In this document: piece by piece, positions 2,393 through 13,992 of the stretch
How the letters are laid out: the number at the start of each line of letters is the position of its first letter
How positions within the stretch are numbered: position 1 is the first letter of the stretch
Virus record (IMG/VR): IMGVR_UViG_3300045146_000219
Span: 1 to 26,946 of that record
Length of the DNA stretch: 26,946 nucleotides
Reading direction: 5' to 3' (one strand)
Origin: a virus
Notes under the pieces: generated by a model
The model's input: the letters and a program-made list of their open reading frames with translations, nothing else
Databases searched by the model: none
Told to the model about the DNA's origin: nothing
Made by a program: the position numbers and the translations under genes

Positions 2393-3058
2393 TCATTCCT
2401 TTTCACTTAGTCTGTAGTCTATACCTTTAATGTACCTCATGTAAAGCTCATATGTAGCTCTCATGTTGGTTATACAGTGTTCTCTAATACTGTCCCAGTA
2501 TCCAGTTTGAACCCATTCTTTTACTTGAGATCCCTTTCCGAATGGTACAGGTATACCACATCTAAGGCACCAGTCAGAAAGTTTACCTTCTTCACCTAGC
2601 ACCTTGTACATATCTATATGTACTCCATCTGGTCCGGTTCCATAACTTCTTACTGCATCTACCAACAACCTTGGTTTAGCTAAATCGTGTCTGATAAATG
2701 CTGTCAGTAAGTACGGAAGGTCAAAGTTCCTTCCATTGTAAGTTACGATCCGATAAGGTTCTTTTTCTATCAGCAAGTCCCTAAATCGTACAAGCATTGA
2801 AGACTCAGCAAGAGAGGTCGAAGCCTCAAGCAAGTATTCGTTCTCTGGAGTTTTCGCTCCAATAACTATAATTCTGCCTGTAAGTGGAAAAAGTGCTAAT
2901 TTGGACATTCTCTTCTCCAACTCCTGCTGTCTGTACTCTTCAATTTTCTTTGGGTCCGTTCTGTTTCCTACGGAAATATCCTCCAGTTGTGGAAGAAGCT
3001 CTGGAGGGAGAGTTTCTTCCGCTACGGTTTCAATGTTTACAACAACTATGTTATTCAT
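2393..3058 (-). CDS. DEDD-type 3'-5' exonuclease-like protein with altered catalytic residues
   Basis: 221 residues resembling the proofreading-type exonuclease domain of family B polymerases as a stand-alone protein. Exo I reads VVNIET where the family usually has D-x-E, so residue 8 is Asn and only E10 remains. Exo II is intact in form (YNGRNFDLPYL, D113). Exo III reads HCITNMRATYELY, with Asn198 where the metal-binding Asp is expected and His194 at the usual Tyr place. The codons are AAC in both Asn positions, read directly. Family membership follows from the three blocks in order. Loss of two of four metal ligands suggests weak or no nuclease activity, perhaps a DNA-binding role. It overlaps the upstream gene by 8 bases and is followed by RuvC. 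Confidence 0.75.
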   Translation of the reverse strand: MNNIVVVNIETVAEETLPPELLPQLEDISVGNRTDPKKIEEYRQQELEKRMSKLALFPLTGRIIVIGAKTPENEYLLEASTSLAESSMLVRFRDLLIEKEPYRIVTYNGRNFDLPYLLTAFIRHDLAKPRLLVDAVRSYGTGPDGVHIDMYKVLGEEGKLSDWCLRCGIPVPFGKGSQVKEWVQTGYWDSIREHCITNMRATYELYMRYIKGIDYRLSEKE

Positions 3059-3900: not shown

Positions 3901-4872
3901 TTAGTTTAATATTTCTGTTGCAAGTTTAAATGCTTTTTGTTTTAGTAGTTCACCACTACCGAACCACATACTTTTTAGTTTCTTGTTGTATAGATTCTTT
4001 GGACCTGTTAATGCACTTGTACTCATTGTATGGTCCACATATTCGGTTATTGTATTGTATGCCTTATAAACCGTAGGTTCTAGCTCATTCTGGTCGTACA
4101 GTTTATAGATAGTCTCTCTAATATTTTCAGTTTTGGTATTGTGTAAAGCTTCAGGATTGTCAGGAATAAGAGTTTTTACATATCCTACTAACTCCGATCC
4201 AGCAATCTTTCTCAATGTCATTTTGTTAAAGATTTCTTCTAAATTAGAATAGATTACGTTGGTAAGTCCCAGTAGTTTATGTGCTTCTTTAAGTTTCGCT
4301 TCTACATTTCTTGTGTGCCGAACGGAAATTTCTTTTTCTTTTCTGTCATTTAGTGCAAACGACAAAGTATTGTTACAAACAACTCTAATTGGAGTCAGCT
4401 TAGCTTTAATAGAGCTTGAACCGTCATGAGAGTTGTACAATAACAAGTACTTGTTGATAATATCTTCGTTGTTTAGTTTAATGTACTCCGGAAGCTTAGC
4501 AAGGATCCATATACGTTCCCCTTTACCTAAAGCTCCCGCTGTTTCGTAAATTGCTTCTCCTTCTCCTACCAAAGAGTCGAAAAAGCAAAATGCTTCTGAG
4601 TTTTGTACTACTTTGTAGTCTGTTCCTACCTTTCCTAGTGCAGTGTTTGTATCTTCTCTAACTGTTACGAATATACCAGAAACTGATATATAACCATCAC
4701 CGTCATGGCGATACAGTGGTTGTTTACTTACATGATAATTCAGCTGAGCTGCTTTTATAGCTTCTTCTGCTGTTGCAGGTTTGTCTAGTTTAGTACCTAC
4801 TTTATGCCATGGTACTTCATTTACATAGAACATAGAAGCTTTACCGTTTTTAAAGTTTAAGTTATGTGCCAC
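3901..4872 (-). CDS. DUF932 / phage-plasmid-like protein (TIGR03299 type)
   Basis: 323 residues. The N-terminus (AHNLNFKNGKASMFYVNEVPWHKVGTKL) and the internal LLLYNSHDGSSSIKAKLTPIRVVCNNTLS block are the signature of the DUF932 family often labelled phage/plasmid-like protein. Such proteins are common near DNA metabolism genes of phages and large plasmids; their biochemical role is not established. The start is GTG at 4872, supported by AAAGGA eight bases upstream. Its ribosome site follows directly after a truncated gene copy at 4896, which marks the edge of the accessory block. Confidence 0.9.
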   Translation of the reverse strand: MAHNLNFKNGKASMFYVNEVPWHKVGTKLDKPATAEEAIKAAQLNYHVSKQPLYRHDGDGYISVSGIFVTVREDTNTALGKVGTDYKVVQNSEAFCFFDSLVGEGEAIYETAGALGKGERIWILAKLPEYIKLNNEDIINKYLLLYNSHDGSSSIKAKLTPIRVVCNNTLSFALNDRKEKEISVRHTRNVEAKLKEAHKLLGLTNVIYSNLEEIFNKMTLRKIAGSELVGYVKTLIPDNPEALHNTKTENIRETIYKLYDQNELEPTVYKAYNTITEYVDHTMSTSALTGPKNLYNKKLKSMWFGSGELLKQKAFKLATEILN

Positions 4873-5508: not shown

Positions 5509-6174
5509 TCATTTCAATAACCTCTCTAAATTCTGTTTTATTTTGAGTTTGATTCCAATACATTTAATACCGTGAATCAATGCCAAAATTTTATCTTTGC
5601 TTGGCTCTGGTAGATTATTTTTTTTTGAATCCGCACCGATGTTGACAAAATCAGGATTCGCTATTTTAATGAGTTCCAGCATCGGCTCTAAATCAAAATC
5701 TATTATTGGTTCAATAGTTACAAATTTCTTTGCCTTTAATGTAGCCATAGCCGTAGCACGTTCTTCGACAGATGGAGCAGATGAAAATCCATCATATAAT
5801 TTTCGATTAGTTTCAATAGTTGTTCCTACCAACATTCTAGGCAACCCCATTCTATTTATAAAATATATTGCTCTTTTTGGATTCTTTGTCTGGAAAACGT
5901 ATTTATTCTCTGAATATGATATGCACTGCATACTTATTGATTTAATCCATTCTGATGGGACTTCATTCGCAAATATATCCGTTAAATGTCCAACAAAGAT
6001 TGTTTTATCTTCTCTAAGTTTTGGAAATGGCAGAAGCAACGTCAATTCTTTTGGCTGTCCTATCATTTTTTTCACATAACAGTATGAACATTGATGTGGG
6101 CAACCCCTGATTGGATTCCACAAATGTGTTACCCAATCATATATATTTTCTTTGGCTTTAATGAGTTTGCTCAT
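5509..6174 (-). CDS. Radical-SAM protein of the Gp37/Gp68 (DUF5131) family
   Basis: 221 residues. The N-terminus has WNPIRGCPHQCSYCYV, with C25-x3-C29-x2-C32 that would hold the [4Fe-4S] cluster used to cleave S-adenosylmethionine. Further family blocks are FVGHLTDIF, FQTKNPKRA, VGTTIETNR and KFVTIEPIIDFDLE, which match the spore-photoproduct-lyase-like DUF5131 group found in many phages. The reaction is unknown. I use ATG 6174 because GGAG stands six bases before it; the frame reaches back to a TTG at 6186. The beginning overlaps a 40-aa frame. About 120 bases downstream (5390-5508) show no convincing gene. Confidence 0.85.
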   Translation of the reverse strand: MSKLIKAKENIYDWVTHLWNPIRGCPHQCSYCYVKKMIGQPKELTLLLPFPKLREDKTIFVGHLTDIFANEVPSEWIKSISMQCISYSENKYVFQTKNPKRAIYFINRMGLPRMLVGTTIETNRKLYDGFSSAPSVEERATAMATLKAKKFVTIEPIIDFDLEPMLELIKIANPDFVNIGADSKKNNLPEPSKDKILALIHGIKCIGIKLKIKQNLERLLK

Positions 6175-6280
6175 CTGTTTCTCCAATTAGTTCTTGTAGA
6201 ATAGAATCACCTGAAAAATGTATTCCCCTTACTAAAGATGTACAATTACGTTCAATCTTTAGACCACGTTTTGTTTTCAT
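6158..6280 (-). CDS. Tiny hypothetical protein (40 aa)
   Basis: MKTKRGLKIERNCTSL onward, 40 residues ending EQTH. ATG 6280 has AAAGGGAAAG upstream, and the gene overlaps both neighbours (29 bases with the upstream 52-aa gene, 17 with the radical-SAM gene), the compact style of this block. No domain is recognised. The length is short enough that chance cannot be excluded. Confidence 0.45.
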   Translation of the reverse strand: MKTKRGLKIERNCTSLVRGIHFSGDSILQELIGETDEQTH

Positions 6281-7867: not shown

Positions 7868-8689
7868 TTAATTCTCCTCAAATATGTGTAATTGCGATAG
7901 ATTAGGTTTATAGTTGGTTATTAATAGTTCGTTCTTCTTTTGGATAATTTGATTAACTGAAATGAATTTAGTATACTTTACGGGGACTTTTAGTATATGA
8001 AAATCCTTATGTAAATATCTAATTTCTGGAACATCGTCATAAGATAATATCCATTTGCATTTTACTTTATTTAATAGTTCAAAAAGCAATTTATGGTCTG
8101 TTTCTGTGAAATCATATTGATAATAATCATTATTATTTGATACCCAGTACGGTGGGTCAAGATACATTAAAACATCTTCGCTTCGGGAATATTTTGGAAT
8201 AATCTCTTTATATGAGCGATTTTCAATTATCACACCATCGAGCTTTTCTCTAACGGATTTCATTCTCTTTATTAGGGCGAGATTAAAACCCGCACCTCCT
8301 TCAATCTTTGCTGAAAAGGGACTATTCGGTCTGCCACAAAACATTGTTTTATTTAAAAACAAATACATCAAAGCCCTATCAACATCATTAATATCTTTGA
8401 ATTTATTATTACTATGTTTCCGAAACTTGTTAAACTCATCCCTTGAATTTAATGTCCAATATACTTTTTGAGCAAGTGCATCAAAATTGTCTCTGACTTG
8501 TACAAATAAGTTTACTAAATTTCCATCAATATCGTTTATGGTATTTAATCGAGCTTTCGGTTTATTGAAAAATATCGCACCCGAACCGAAAAATACTTCA
8601 ACATAATGTTTATGTTTAGGCATTATCGAAATAATTTTACGAGCAAGTTTTTGCTTTCCTCCGAAATATTGAATAAGCGTTGATAACAT
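7868..8689 (-). CDS. dam: DNA adenine N6-methyltransferase, Dam / D12 class
   Basis: 273 residues, the usual size of Dam/DpnM enzymes. It transfers a methyl group from S-adenosylmethionine to adenine N6 in double-stranded DNA. The N-terminal IQYFGGKQKLA and VEVFFGSGAIFF (F-x-G-x-G, residues 30-41) form the AdoMet site, and DPPYW at 178-182 is the catalytic motif IV. NKTMFCGRPNSPFSAK and the C-terminal KNELLITNY also fit the D12 family. The target site cannot be read from sequence; GATC is only the family default. It would shield phage DNA from restriction or mark it. The start follows a 23-codon leader by six bases, so coupling is likely. Confidence 0.9.
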   Translation of the reverse strand: MLSTLIQYFGGKQKLARKIISIMPKHKHYVEVFFGSGAIFFNKPKARLNTINDIDGNLVNLFVQVRDNFDALAQKVYWTLNSRDEFNKFRKHSNNKFKDINDVDRALMYLFLNKTMFCGRPNSPFSAKIEGGAGFNLALIKRMKSVREKLDGVIIENRSYKEIIPKYSRSEDVLMYLDPPYWVSNNNDYYQYDFTETDHKLLFELLNKVKCKWILSYDDVPEIRYLHKDFHILKVPVKYTKFISVNQIIQKKNELLITNYKPNLSQLHIFEEN

Positions 8690-10568: not shown

Positions 10569-12320
10569 TCAAGTAATCTGAGTGAATCTAAATGTATCTT
10601 TATTCATTGTACACCTCAGTACAAAAGAAGATTCATCTCTTGCACCAAGTGAAGTTATTATCCTCAATGGATTATCTTGTCTTCCCTCAATTCCTATTAT
10701 CTTATCAGCTTTCTGTTCTATAGCTGAAGAATTCTTTCCTGAATGTATAGTTAATCTTCGCGTTTTCCCCCGCTCATCCAAAATAGCTGCTTTGCTGATA
10801 TGATGTATACCTACGATGATAGTACTGTACTTCTGCGCTAGGTTCTTCAATGTGACAGCTATTCTTGAAGTTTTTTCATTGTCTCCCCCAACAGTAACTA
10901 GAGAATCCAATGTATCTACTACAACTATCTGAGCGTTAGTCTCAGCTACTATTCTTGCTATATCGTCTAGGTTAGGAGAAATAGTTATCATTCTGATATG
11001 GTCTACAGCCTTGGAAAGTGTATTAGTACTGTCTAGATAGTACCTGTATACATCCTCCTTTTTCATATTGTGAGCAATCTGTAAAAAGCGTCTGTACATC
11101 AAATCTTGAGCTACCTCAAGCGACATATACAGTACTTTCTTGTCTTTCCAATGGATACATAGATTTTGTGCAAATGCTGACTTGCCTAGCTTGGTATCTC
11201 CCCAAATAACAACAAACTCCCCAGGGTAAATGTTATAGTCTGGTATGGTATATAAGTCTGCTAAGTTAATTGCATTTTTGAAACTGTCTGAATGTAGAAA
11301 CTTTACAAAGTCTCTTTCCATGCCTTCTGCACTTACTATCTGAATTCCATAGGATTTAGCTTGATAGTAAATACATTCAGGAGAACAAAACTGTTGCATT
11401 ATTTCATCATGGCAACTGTAAGAATATCCATTGATGTATACTCCACGTACGACCTTCTCTACATCACTGGCTGGTACTTCAGAAGCGTACTTTTTAAGTA
11501 GATCGACTACTCCCTCATATGGAGTACCTGAACGTCTCCATGCAGAGGCCATTCTTAACATACGTACATGTCGAGTTCCTTCTTCTGCTCCTTTGTTGTA
11601 ACATTTTTGCATACATGTTACAATTGGAGTTACAGGAAACGTTTGATGAAATCGATTTGTCTTTTCAGGAAGAGATCGTAAGATAAGAGATGAGTACTGC
11701 TTTGTAGATTCTGGTATTTCATAGTTCCACCGTTGTGGTTGTTCCGAAGCTAACGCTATAATTTCTTCTACTGTTGCTTTCCAGAATGTATCATGTCGAA
11801 TCGGGACTTTCCATAATCCCGACTTGTCGTTTATAGAGTACCTTACTCTAAACAAACTCGAATTCATATAAATAGAGGTATCTCCATACGGTAAATGCTT
11901 CTGGATAGTTGCTTTAACTGTTGCTGGTAAACTTTCTGAAGGTTCAAATCCAAATATATCAGGAAGGATCAGATGATAACCTCTTCCTGAGTACCATACT
12001 TCAGGTTCTACCTGAAATCTTTTTTGGATTGTCGAAACTATATCTCTTGCTTTGTTCAGTACTTCTTCATCTGTTTGTGTACCTCTGTCTACATCAATAG
12101 GAATTTCTTCTATGAAGTACTTTCCTCTATAGCCTTTGATGCTTTTGTACAAACTGAAATGCTTAGTTGCTTCTTGCGCTTCAAGATTGTAAATAGATCG
12201 GTATAGTGGTGTTTGATGTTCTACTGCACCTGCTAAAATGTTTGCAAAGTTGTGTTGGTTGGTGATTGTACCACGGTTTGATGGAGATCCAAGGGCGTAC
12301 TCGAACAACTGATCTTCCAT
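10569..12320 (-). CDS. Primase-helicase: PriS-like, PriL-like and RecA-type helicase in one chain
   Basis: 583 residues. (1) Residues 65-180 carry archaeo-eukaryotic primase motifs: IPIDVD (D76, D78), SGRGYHL (H116) and GDTSIYMNSSLFRVRYS (D147) followed by SGLWKVPI. (2) Residues 230-320 have C236/C240, an RHVRMLRMA helix and SYSC(303)-FC(312)-x3-C(316)IYY, the spacing style of the iron-sulphur C-terminal domain of the large primase subunit PriL. (3) Residues 360-583 are a RecA/DnaB-like ATPase: Walker A GDTKLGKS (374-381), Walker B IVVVDTLDSL (D469) and an IVGIHHISK strand. It would make primers and unwind the fork for phage replication. The PriL part is my weakest assignment. Start ATG 12320 overlaps the upstream gene by 88 bases; GGAG lies 13 bases before it. 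Confidence 0.85.
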   Translation of the reverse strand: MEDQLFEYALGSPSNRGTITNQHNFANILAGAVEHQTPLYRSIYNLEAQEATKHFSLYKSIKGYRGKYFIEEIPIDVDRGTQTDEEVLNKARDIVSTIQKRFQVEPEVWYSGRGYHLILPDIFGFEPSESLPATVKATIQKHLPYGDTSIYMNSSLFRVRYSINDKSGLWKVPIRHDTFWKATVEEIIALASEQPQRWNYEIPESTKQYSSLILRSLPEKTNRFHQTFPVTPIVTCMQKCYNKGAEEGTRHVRMLRMASAWRRSGTPYEGVVDLLKKYASEVPASDVEKVVRGVYINGYSYSCHDEIMQQFCSPECIYYQAKSYGIQIVSAEGMERDFVKFLHSDSFKNAINLADLYTIPDYNIYPGEFVVIWGDTKLGKSAFAQNLCIHWKDKKVLYMSLEVAQDLMYRRFLQIAHNMKKEDVYRYYLDSTNTLSKAVDHIRMITISPNLDDIARIVAETNAQIVVVDTLDSLVTVGGDNEKTSRIAVTLKNLAQKYSTIIVGIHHISKAAILDERGKTRRLTIHSGKNSSAIEQKADKIIGIEGRQDNPLRIITSLGARDESSFVLRCTMNKDTFRFTQIT

Positions 12321-12580
12321 GTGGACTCTAAGTCTCCTTTCTCGGAAACGTCAATTATGGTAAGTTGGTACTTACTTTGGTTAGCTTTGATTTCTCTCCA
12401 ACGGCGTGAGTAAGTAGAGGGAGTATGTCGAATTCCATGTATAGATAGTCCATAAGTGAATACATCTGTTTCAAATTCGTGAGATTTAAATATTGCCGTT
12501 GAGTTTAGTGTTACTCGCAACTTGCGGTAGATGAAGTTAACAACAATTTGCTTTGCTGTCAAGCTTTTTTGCTTATTCAT
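12233..12580 (-). CDS. Hypothetical basic protein overlapping the primase-helicase start
   Basis: 115 residues with AAGGA eight bases before ATG 12580. The first 75 residues (KSLTAKQIVVNFIYRKL, then SIHGIRHTPSTYSRRWREIK) look like a small winged-helix-type DNA-binding unit, and the last 29 lie over the beginning of the primase-helicase in another frame. Such a long overlap is unusual for this genome, so either the primase starts further in or the overlap is genuine. A DNA-binding role is a guess. Confidence 0.65.
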   Translation of the reverse strand: MNKQKSLTAKQIVVNFIYRKLRVTLNSTAIFKSHEFETDVFTYGLSIHGIRHTPSTYSRRWREIKANQSKYQLTIIDVSEKGDLESTWKISCSSTPLDLHQTVVQSPTNTTLQTF

Positions 12581-12652: not shown

Positions 12653-13222
12653 CTAGAATGGATCCTCGTTAGAGGGTTCTATTTGAGTAGGAAAGAATGA
12701 AAGCGAAGGAGCTACATTAGGATTGAACTTCTTAATTCTGTTCTTCTTTACCTGTGATACAAAATAGGCTATCAATGAGTCATGATCGTCACAACTGCCT
12801 ACTATATCCCAAGAATACCATAACACCTTATCAGGGTTGTCTTTGCGTACTCCAGCAATGTACTTCAGTTGTGCAAATTTCTTCCCTACTAAAGCATTTA
12901 CTATATCCTGTGGAATATCCTCGTTTTCGTCAATAACCAGTTCTACTCCGCAAGAATGAAATAGTTCTCCTACTTTAAATGCTGAGCCATAAGAGATAGC
13001 CTTACCATTCTCATCTCTTTTGAGATTGCCGAATAGTTCTACTGTAGGTTGAAACGATTGACCCACATCTACTATCAAAGCTAAATATAAGTCAAACTGT
13101 TCCCCTATACGTGGATGAACAGTTCCAGATAAGTTCTTCACAGCTACAATTGTACAGTCCTGTACAAATATGCCTCTTTGACCAGCCCCACTTCCTGGTT
13201 CTTTATGATTGTACTTTAACAT
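12653..13222 (-). CDS. SSB-like single-stranded DNA-binding protein candidate
   Basis: 189 residues. The body is beta-rich (FVQDCTIVAVKNLSGTVHP, FDLYLALIVDVG, PTVELFGNL) as for an OB-fold, and the chain ends in a low-complexity tail finishing EPSNEDPF. That ending resembles the acidic D-D-x-PF tip with which bacterial SSBs bind partner proteins. Sak4-like ATPases work with a cognate SSB, and this gene starts 7 bases inside the end of such an ATPase gene with GGAGGAAAG before its ATG. No classical SSB motif is plain, so the call rests on tail, length and context. Confidence 0.55.
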   Translation of the reverse strand: MLKYNHKEPGSGAGQRGIFVQDCTIVAVKNLSGTVHPRIGEQFDLYLALIVDVGQSFQPTVELFGNLKRDENGKAISYGSAFKVGELFHSCGVELVIDENEDIPQDIVNALVGKKFAQLKYIAGVRKDNPDKVLWYSWDIVGSCDDHDSLIAYFVSQVKKNRIKKFNPNVAPSLSFFPTQIEPSNEDPF

Positions 13223-13992
13223 CTTTCCTCCAGATCTTTTATCAATTGTGGTAATGTTGTTGTTAGTTCAAAGTTGTATTCCTCACTTACTGAGAGTCCA
13301 GGCTTTCCAAACTCGGTTAGCTTTAAGGACTTCTTTTTGTCCTGATAACATCTTACTCGGACTAGTGAAGAATACAATAGCTTGTCGTAAATTCTAGGTA
13401 CTAATTTTCCTGTAGACCTGTCTCCAATATATTCATCCTTCATTCTACAGGTTAAAACTACATTAAATCCTCCCTTGTTCAGAGATTCAATAGGAACGTC
13501 ACACTTTTGCCATACTAATCCCCAAACAGGAATAGGAAATATCTTTTCTATTCCAACTTCAGCTAAGACTCTCTGCTCAGCATACTTTTGATAGTCTGAA
13601 CCTGAATCTATAACTACAGTTCCTGGGGGATATTTCTTAATAATACCCTTGATAGTTCCATACAACTCAATGTAGTTCTTAGCTTGGGCATACAGAATAT
13701 TGTTGCGTCCTTGCTTTTTAAATTTGTTGATTACATACTGACCTTTGTACTCTGTGTCAATAAAGTACACCGGACCAGCTTCACACATCGTAAGGCTGAA
13801 GTGTGTCTTTCCTGATCCCTCTTGTCCTATTAGCAATATTGTAATTGGAGGAAGCTCAAGAAGCTTTTCTAAACTTGCTTCCTGAGGACCAAATGAAAAA
13901 TCCTGTATCGCCTTTTGTACGGTTTCGTACTCTTCTCTACTCTGCCAAGTCAATACAGGATTCTTCGGTGGTTCCTTTTTCTGTTCTGTCAC
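13216..13992 (-). CDS. Sak4-like RecA-fold ATPase (single-strand annealing family)
   Basis: 258 residues. Walker A is GQEGSGKT (56-63), followed by VYFIDTEYKG and Walker B GTVVIDSGSD (D129), then VWGLVWQK and NVVLTCRMKDEY. This order is that of AAA_24 / Sak4 phage proteins, which are minimal RecA-like ATPases that assist strand annealing in phage recombination. Related P-loop families cannot be excluded. The start is GTG 13992, inside the upstream gene (56-base overlap), with a poor ribosome site. The SSB-like gene follows directly, the usual partner of Sak4. Confidence 0.75.
   Translation of the reverse strand: MTEQKKEPPKNPVLTWQSREEYETVQKAIQDFSFGPQEASLEKLLELPPITILLIGQEGSGKTHFSLTMCEAGPVYFIDTEYKGQYVINKFKKQGRNNILYAQAKNYIELYGTIKGIIKKYPPGTVVIDSGSDYQKYAEQRVLAEVGIEKIFPIPVWGLVWQKCDVPIESLNKGGFNVVLTCRMKDEYIGDRSTGKLVPRIYDKLLYSSLVRVRCYQDKKKSLKLTEFGKPGLSVSEEYNFELTTTLPQLIKDLEERC

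Follow-up and report, generated by a model that had tools for sequence, protein, structure and literature searches.

We consider it likely that the gene at positions 10569 to 12320 of the window (the whole analysed stretch of 26,946 bases, an IMG/VR virus record) encodes a replicative primase-helicase of a phage, in which a primase of the archaeo-eukaryotic type (AEP), a PriL-CTD-like domain most likely carrying a [4Fe-4S] cluster and a DnaB-type ring would be coupled in cis within one chain. The observation made in the first-pass annotation, namely that an AEP, a cysteine region and a RecA motor are situated in one 583-aa protein, was confirmed by the motifs and their invariance in relatives. 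Its interpretation was retained for the AEP, the four-Cys domain of the PriL Fe-S-like kind and the RecA/DnaB-type helicase in one chain, but for PriL it was narrowed to the C-terminal Fe-S part, and it was not retained for the cysteine C240, the novelty of the one-chain layout and a replisome.

Gene and domain layout

The gene is real and consists of one long ORF of 583 aa on the minus strand, which starts with ATG and is preceded by AAGGAG 13 nt upstream; the plus strand of the same stretch is full of stops. The main features are given below.

10569..12320, minus strand: AEP - PriL-CTD-like four-Cys - DnaB/RecA fusion protein, 583 aa, with a full-length family of 21 members
11721..12320, minus strand: AEP (PriS-like) catalytic domain, approximately residues 1-200, with invariant motifs; the profile of the relatives matches PriS structures 1zt2, 1v33, 9f26 and 1g71
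12087..12095, minus strand: D76-V-D78, metal-binding motif, invariant
11973..11990, minus strand: S111-G-R-G-Y-H116 motif, with S111, G112, G114 and H116 invariant
11847..11882, minus strand: D147...R158, third acidic motif and conserved Arg, invariant
11355..11627, minus strand: PriL-CTD/PriX/PriCT-like helical four-Cys domain, residues 232-322, recognized by profile matches, hhalign and model fold
10578..11234, minus strand: RecA-fold DnaB-like (SF4) helicase domain, residues 363-581 (Pfam DnaB_C 4e-12, AAA_25 8.7e-16; best Foldseek match DnaB)
11178..11201, minus strand: Walker A GDTKLGKS (374-381), with T376 and K380 invariant and G374 and G379 nearly so
10911..10928, minus strand: Walker B strand VVVD469T, ending in D469-T470, with D469 invariant

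Thus, the order of domains is AEP, four-Cys helical domain and DnaB-type RecA domain, and the protein ends with the last of these, leaving no room for a C-terminal winged helix. PHROG 16345 ('primase') matches residues 71-283. The AlphaFold model of the full chain has a pLDDT of 81.7 and a pTM of just 0.46, so that the relative placement of the domains is not readable from it.

All three catalytic motifs of the AEP superfamily (DhD, sxH and hD) were found, as D76/D78, S111...H116 and D147, and the window protein carries D147-TSIY and L-F-R158-VRYS. Residues D76, D78, S111, G112, G114, H116, D147, R158 and K171 are invariant in 11 aligned sequences and also in the 21 full-length fusions, and the D-x-D, S-G-R-G-x-H and DTSIY/FRVRYS blocks named at first reading are indeed present. 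The conservation of the AEP and Cys motifs is far above chance. Profile A1, built from the N-terminal 357 residues and the relatives, finds PriS and PriL structures together.

The motor domain combines Walker A, Walker B, a DnaB-like SLE motif (SLEV) and the DnaB_C profile, and DnaB structures are the top PDB matches of the full-length model in Foldseek. The Walker motifs claimed earlier therefore stand, with T376, K380 and D469 invariant in the fusion family.

The four-cysteine domain

Cysteines of the window protein in this region occupy positions 236, 240, 303, 312 and 316, and four of them, all invariant, are proposed as ligands of the cluster.

11613..11615, minus strand: C236, proposed cluster ligand 1
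11412..11414, minus strand: C303, proposed cluster ligand 2
11385..11387, minus strand: C312, proposed cluster ligand 3
11373..11375, minus strand: C316, proposed cluster ligand 4

These four are kept in 21/21 full-length fusions and in 10 stand-alone phage and plasmid primases, which removes the doubt raised at the outset whether the cysteines are conserved in homologues, and other Cys columns are scattered across the 21 fusions. The conservation of C236 and C303 in the fusion set is biased, because one or the other was part of the scan patterns by which the fusions were retrieved; C312, C316, the stand-alone set and L028, obtained through TerL, are free of this bias. Position 240 is Cys solely in the window protein and a near-invariant Met among relatives, so C240 was rejected as a fifth conserved cysteine, and the 'four to five' cysteines in PriL-like spacing of the first-pass annotation became four. 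Their spacing is 67-9-4 in the window protein versus 64-9-4 in archaeal PriL (5of3 chain B), the last three cysteines being spaced (9, 4) exactly as in archaeal PriL.

Profile A6, constructed from eight stand-alone four-Cys domains with the window sequence left out, matches PriL chains only in the PDB (best 5of3_B, E 8e-5), and its alignment to 5of3 (hhalign 94.8%, 5e-8) places all four Cys in register. Profile A5, representing the four-Cys domain of the fusions, matches A6 with 99.2% probability (1e-19), no sequence being common to both. A5 itself found nothing relevant in the PDB and gave 1.4% against 5of3; therefore, the link of the fusion domain to PriL is transitive and rests on intermediates and fold. 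One relative exceeds the Pfam PriL cut-off (2.8e-6), and tblastn of an archaeal PriL fragment against the phage records gave no significant match. Taken together, the profiles indicate that the Cys domain is homologous to PriL through intermediates. A comparison of profile A8 with A1 does not enter this argument, as the window sequence is part of both.

The AlphaFold model of residues 226-330 is an all-helical bundle (pLDDT 75.5). When it was compared with 350,542 PDB chains by Foldseek, PriX was the best match and the PriL Fe-S domains of Xenopus, human and yeast were prominent next; the E-values are weak (best 0.06), yet the relevant families top the list. The concern that this region would model as a PriCT or zinc ribbon unrelated to PriL was thus not borne out. 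A zinc ribbon was ruled out on fold, none being so named among the 50 matches listed.

The N-terminal PriS-binding domain of PriL is absent, as the AEP and the Cys domain are separated by no more than some 33 residues (201-233) of poor model quality, and at E<=1 PF04104 matched nothing in the window. For this reason the domain is called PriL-CTD-like and the protein is not a PriL. In a Pfam search PriCT-1 (PF08708) left the window protein unmatched, was found in 2/21 fusions at E<=0.01 and matched most stand-alone relatives, with values up to 4e-7. Since PriX, PriCT and PriL Fe-S_N are related to one another (PMC5862659), the best name is a PriL-CTD/PriCT-like domain with the PriL Cys set, and 'PriCT or PriL' is in part a false alternative for a domain akin to both. 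The PriL iron-sulphur-like part proposed earlier stands as the C-terminal Fe-S-type domain, which is related to PriCT-1 too; the N-terminal domain of PriL is missing.

The same primase-helicase could bind zinc through the four Cys, as a structural site in a PriCT-like domain, instead of a redox Fe-S cluster. The number and spacing of cysteines alone cannot separate Zn from [4Fe-4S], and some AEP-helicase fusions were described with a zinc-binding domain at this place (PMC5862659). We regard zinc as rather unlikely, because fold and spacing agree with PriL Fe-S domains, and purified PolpTN2, in which the same PriL Cys are conserved, was light brown, a colour that disappeared on deletion of the Cys part (PMC3973330). 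We therefore predict a [4Fe-4S] cluster on C236/C303/C312/C316 as most likely, Fe-S rather than Zn being what we infer from these points.

AEPs of the TOTE conflict-system type (PF22548) in two genomes of the phylum of genome G029, Bacteroidota (L093:1495-2517, minus strand, and L094:1489-2559, minus strand), have a similar four-Cys PriL-like C-terminal domain. The L093 tail matches the fusion domain in hhalign (98.6%, 9e-16), so that a PriL-type Cys domain is common to distinct AEP families.

Relatives and neighbouring genes

A scan of viral contigs with the window protein as a single sequence found no relatives. With the terminase (TerL) as bait, L027/L028 were obtained, a full-length fusion 34-37% identical to the window protein, and scanning with the resulting two-sequence alignment gave 32 loci in viral contigs and 2 in assemblies of bacteria, one from a Flavobacteriales MAG and the other from a Prochlorococcus single cell. 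The full-length family (n=21) comprises the window protein and 20 relatives that share 31-38% identity with it and come mostly from IMG/VR contigs; tblastn did not find the full fusion among 50,697 annotated phage records. Profile searches found the Cys-bearing fusion in 1/396 genomes of the G029 phylum and 1/386 of the G030 phylum, in each case the centre genome itself; since both finds may stem from phage contigs that ended up in a bin or a single cell, they do not point to a host. The three-part version is apparently an undescribed, widespread family of its own in uncultured viruses.

Distant stand-alone relatives of 315-372 aa with no fused motor were found by tblastn of phage records and plasmids. 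They belong to Thermus phages P23-45, G20c and phiFa (annotated as 'eukaryotic type DNA primase small subunit'), Bacillus phage KLEB27-3 (gp067), Moorella phage MTATph1 and plasmids of about 200 kb from Bacillus, Cytobacillus and Paenibacillus. A DnaB-like helicase is encoded separately within a few genes of these primases, often by the next one.

Natural counterparts without the Cys, with the AEP-PriCT-1-DnaB layout, occur in L087 and L090 (G029 phylum) and in the Hymenobacter plasmid pHsw2 (L007:4830-6854). They bring up another explanation, that the window protein is an ordinary AEP-PriCT-1-DnaB primase-helicase of the PrimQH kind, its likeness to PriL reflecting shared PriCT/PriL ancestry and no special function. 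This agrees with the PriCT-1 matches of two fusions and of the majority of stand-alone relatives, with the same order of domains and plain PriCT-1 in the Bacteroidota fusions L087, L090 and P0007 (the last on a Hymenobacter plasmid), and with the AEP tree, where the fusions group with Cys-less PriCT fusions (96/92), the branches being long and the root arbitrary. Nevertheless, it is not very probable in our opinion, since the four Cys are retained throughout the fusions against scattered other Cys columns, and the PriCT-1 relatives do without them. The tree grouping hints at a possible loss of Cys in the Cys-less PriCT fusions.

The surroundings of the gene for this four-Cys primase-helicase contain the following features.

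12233..12580, minus strand: 115-aa ORF overlapping the primase start, a conserved neighbour with a homologue at the same position in 18 relatives' loci
12653..13222, minus strand: 189-aa conserved upstream gene with a homologue just upstream in 21 relatives' loci
13216..13992, minus strand: Sak4-like ssDNA-annealing ATPase (PHROG 124, 1.6e-13)

The primase-helicase is syntenic with the two conserved upstream genes, and the 189-aa protein has no PHROG or Pfam match. The Sak4-like gene adjoins them in the window and likely belongs to the same operon as the primase-helicase. In some relatives its place is occupied by a Sak single-strand annealing protein (PF06378, 5.9e-14; L028:80-700, plus strand, and homologues) upstream of the conserved gene of 176-189 aa. 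The other arm of the window contains terminase, portal and major head genes. The minus strand of the window further encodes a DUF5131 / radical SAM protein, which lies in the phage's non-structural arm (5509-6186), a DUF932 protein (3901-4872), a stand-alone PolB-type 3'-5' exonuclease with no polymerase detected (2393-3058), a Holliday junction resolvase (1873-2406) and a DNA methyltransferase (7868-8689). Near the primase of a 53-kb relative, proteins of 817 and 343 aa (G016:38401-40854 and 40857-41888, both minus strand) resemble, judged by eye from sequence only, a pair of VWA/CobT-like protein and MoxR-like ATPase.

No PolA, PolB, PolIII-alpha or DnaG was detected in the window or in the records of 14 relatives (15 records of up to 53 kb, possibly incomplete). 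With no polymerase found, the primase-helicase is not a replisome, and the earlier expression 'compact replisome' was an overstatement. The same result would suit a PrimPol replicase, i.e. a protein that also extends DNA and serves as the phage's own main polymerase, all the more so as DNA polymerases are known among other mobile-element AEPs (PMC4538821). We find this unlikely: the records are possibly fragmentary, a phage of such size can borrow the host polymerase, and the sequence holds nothing that tells a primase from a PrimPol. Quite unlikely is also the boldest combination, an undescribed widespread phage lineage with a single-chain, Fe-S-dependent PriS-PriL-type primase on a ring helicase, where the same protein as a PrimPol would both start and extend DNA. 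A repair, defence or recombination enzyme, which the Sak4-like neighbour and the TOTE conflict-system AEPs with their similar four-Cys tail might suggest, is highly improbable, because the DnaB-type motor is conserved and no DnaG primase was detected in the 15 records.

Proposed function and comparison with known systems

For a replicative primase-helicase, we infer primase and helicase activities, a hexameric state and a role for each domain. The N-terminal AEP palm would make primers at the D76/D78/D147 metal site. The PriL-CTD of archaeal and eukaryotic primases holds the template and initiating nucleotides, and the PriL-CTD-like domain may similarly hold the template and the initiating nucleotide (or the primer 5' end) beside the active site and support primer initiation. 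The C-terminal DnaB-type RecA domain would form a hexameric ring travelling on the lagging-strand template; as this ring motor is in the same chain as the primase, a coupling of priming and unwinding in cis is proposed.

The role of the PriL [4Fe-4S] cluster is disputed, the views being a structural element and a redox switch for hand-off. The AEP-four-Cys-DnaB proteins of phages versus the AEP-Cys-less PriCT-1-DnaB proteins of Bacteroidota elements, together with the unfused four-Cys primases of Thermus and Bacillus phages, represent a matched natural set, and its comparison could reveal what the cluster adds. The window protein also offers a compact model for a primase of the archaeal/eukaryotic type and a replicative helicase of the bacterial type linked in cis.

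The literature that could be searched yielded no account of the three-part protein with the Cys; each pairing of parts was known before, whereas AEP, four-Cys domain and DnaB together are apparently undescribed. One-chain PriS-PriL proteins are known from N. equitans, the Bacillus prophage phBC6A51 and PolpTN2 (PMC3973330), and AEP-PriCT-DnaB fusions, the PrimQH family with DnaB, have already been described (PMC5862659), so the surprise is smaller than first claimed and the word 'unusual' was toned down.

PolpTN2 of the Thermococcus plasmid pTN2, compared by description, is likewise a single chain with an AEP and, in its PriL-like part, four conserved Cys, but has 923 aa, PriCT-1, both PriL domains, a winged helix and no helicase (PMC3973330), whereas the window protein has a helicase and no room for the PriL N-terminal domain or a winged helix. 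The PriS-PriL proteins of phBC6A51 and N. equitans, also compared by description, are single chains too, that of phBC6A51 being phage-borne as well, but no fused helicase is described in them (PMC3973330). The stand-alone phage and plasmid AEPs are clear homologues with the AEP motifs and four Cys of the fusion and differ in having the helicase as a separate nearby gene. The AEP-PriCT-DnaB fusions (PrimQH with DnaB, L087, L090 and P0007) agree with the window protein in the succession AEP, helical domain, DnaB-type motor; L087, L090 and P0007, the three examined, differ by a plain PriCT-1 without the four Cys, and the PrimQH family of PrimPol-PV1 by the C-terminal winged helix, for which there is no room in the window chain (PMC5862659). 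A0A516LUR0, a viral protein of 584 aa from BFVD, matches in structure over nearly the full length (E 3e-37, 24% identity). T7 gp4 resembles the window protein in combining a primase and an SF4 ring in one chain, and the coupling of priming to unwinding proposed here would work as in T7 gp4; the T7 primase is of the TOPRIM type with a Zn domain and is unrelated to AEP.
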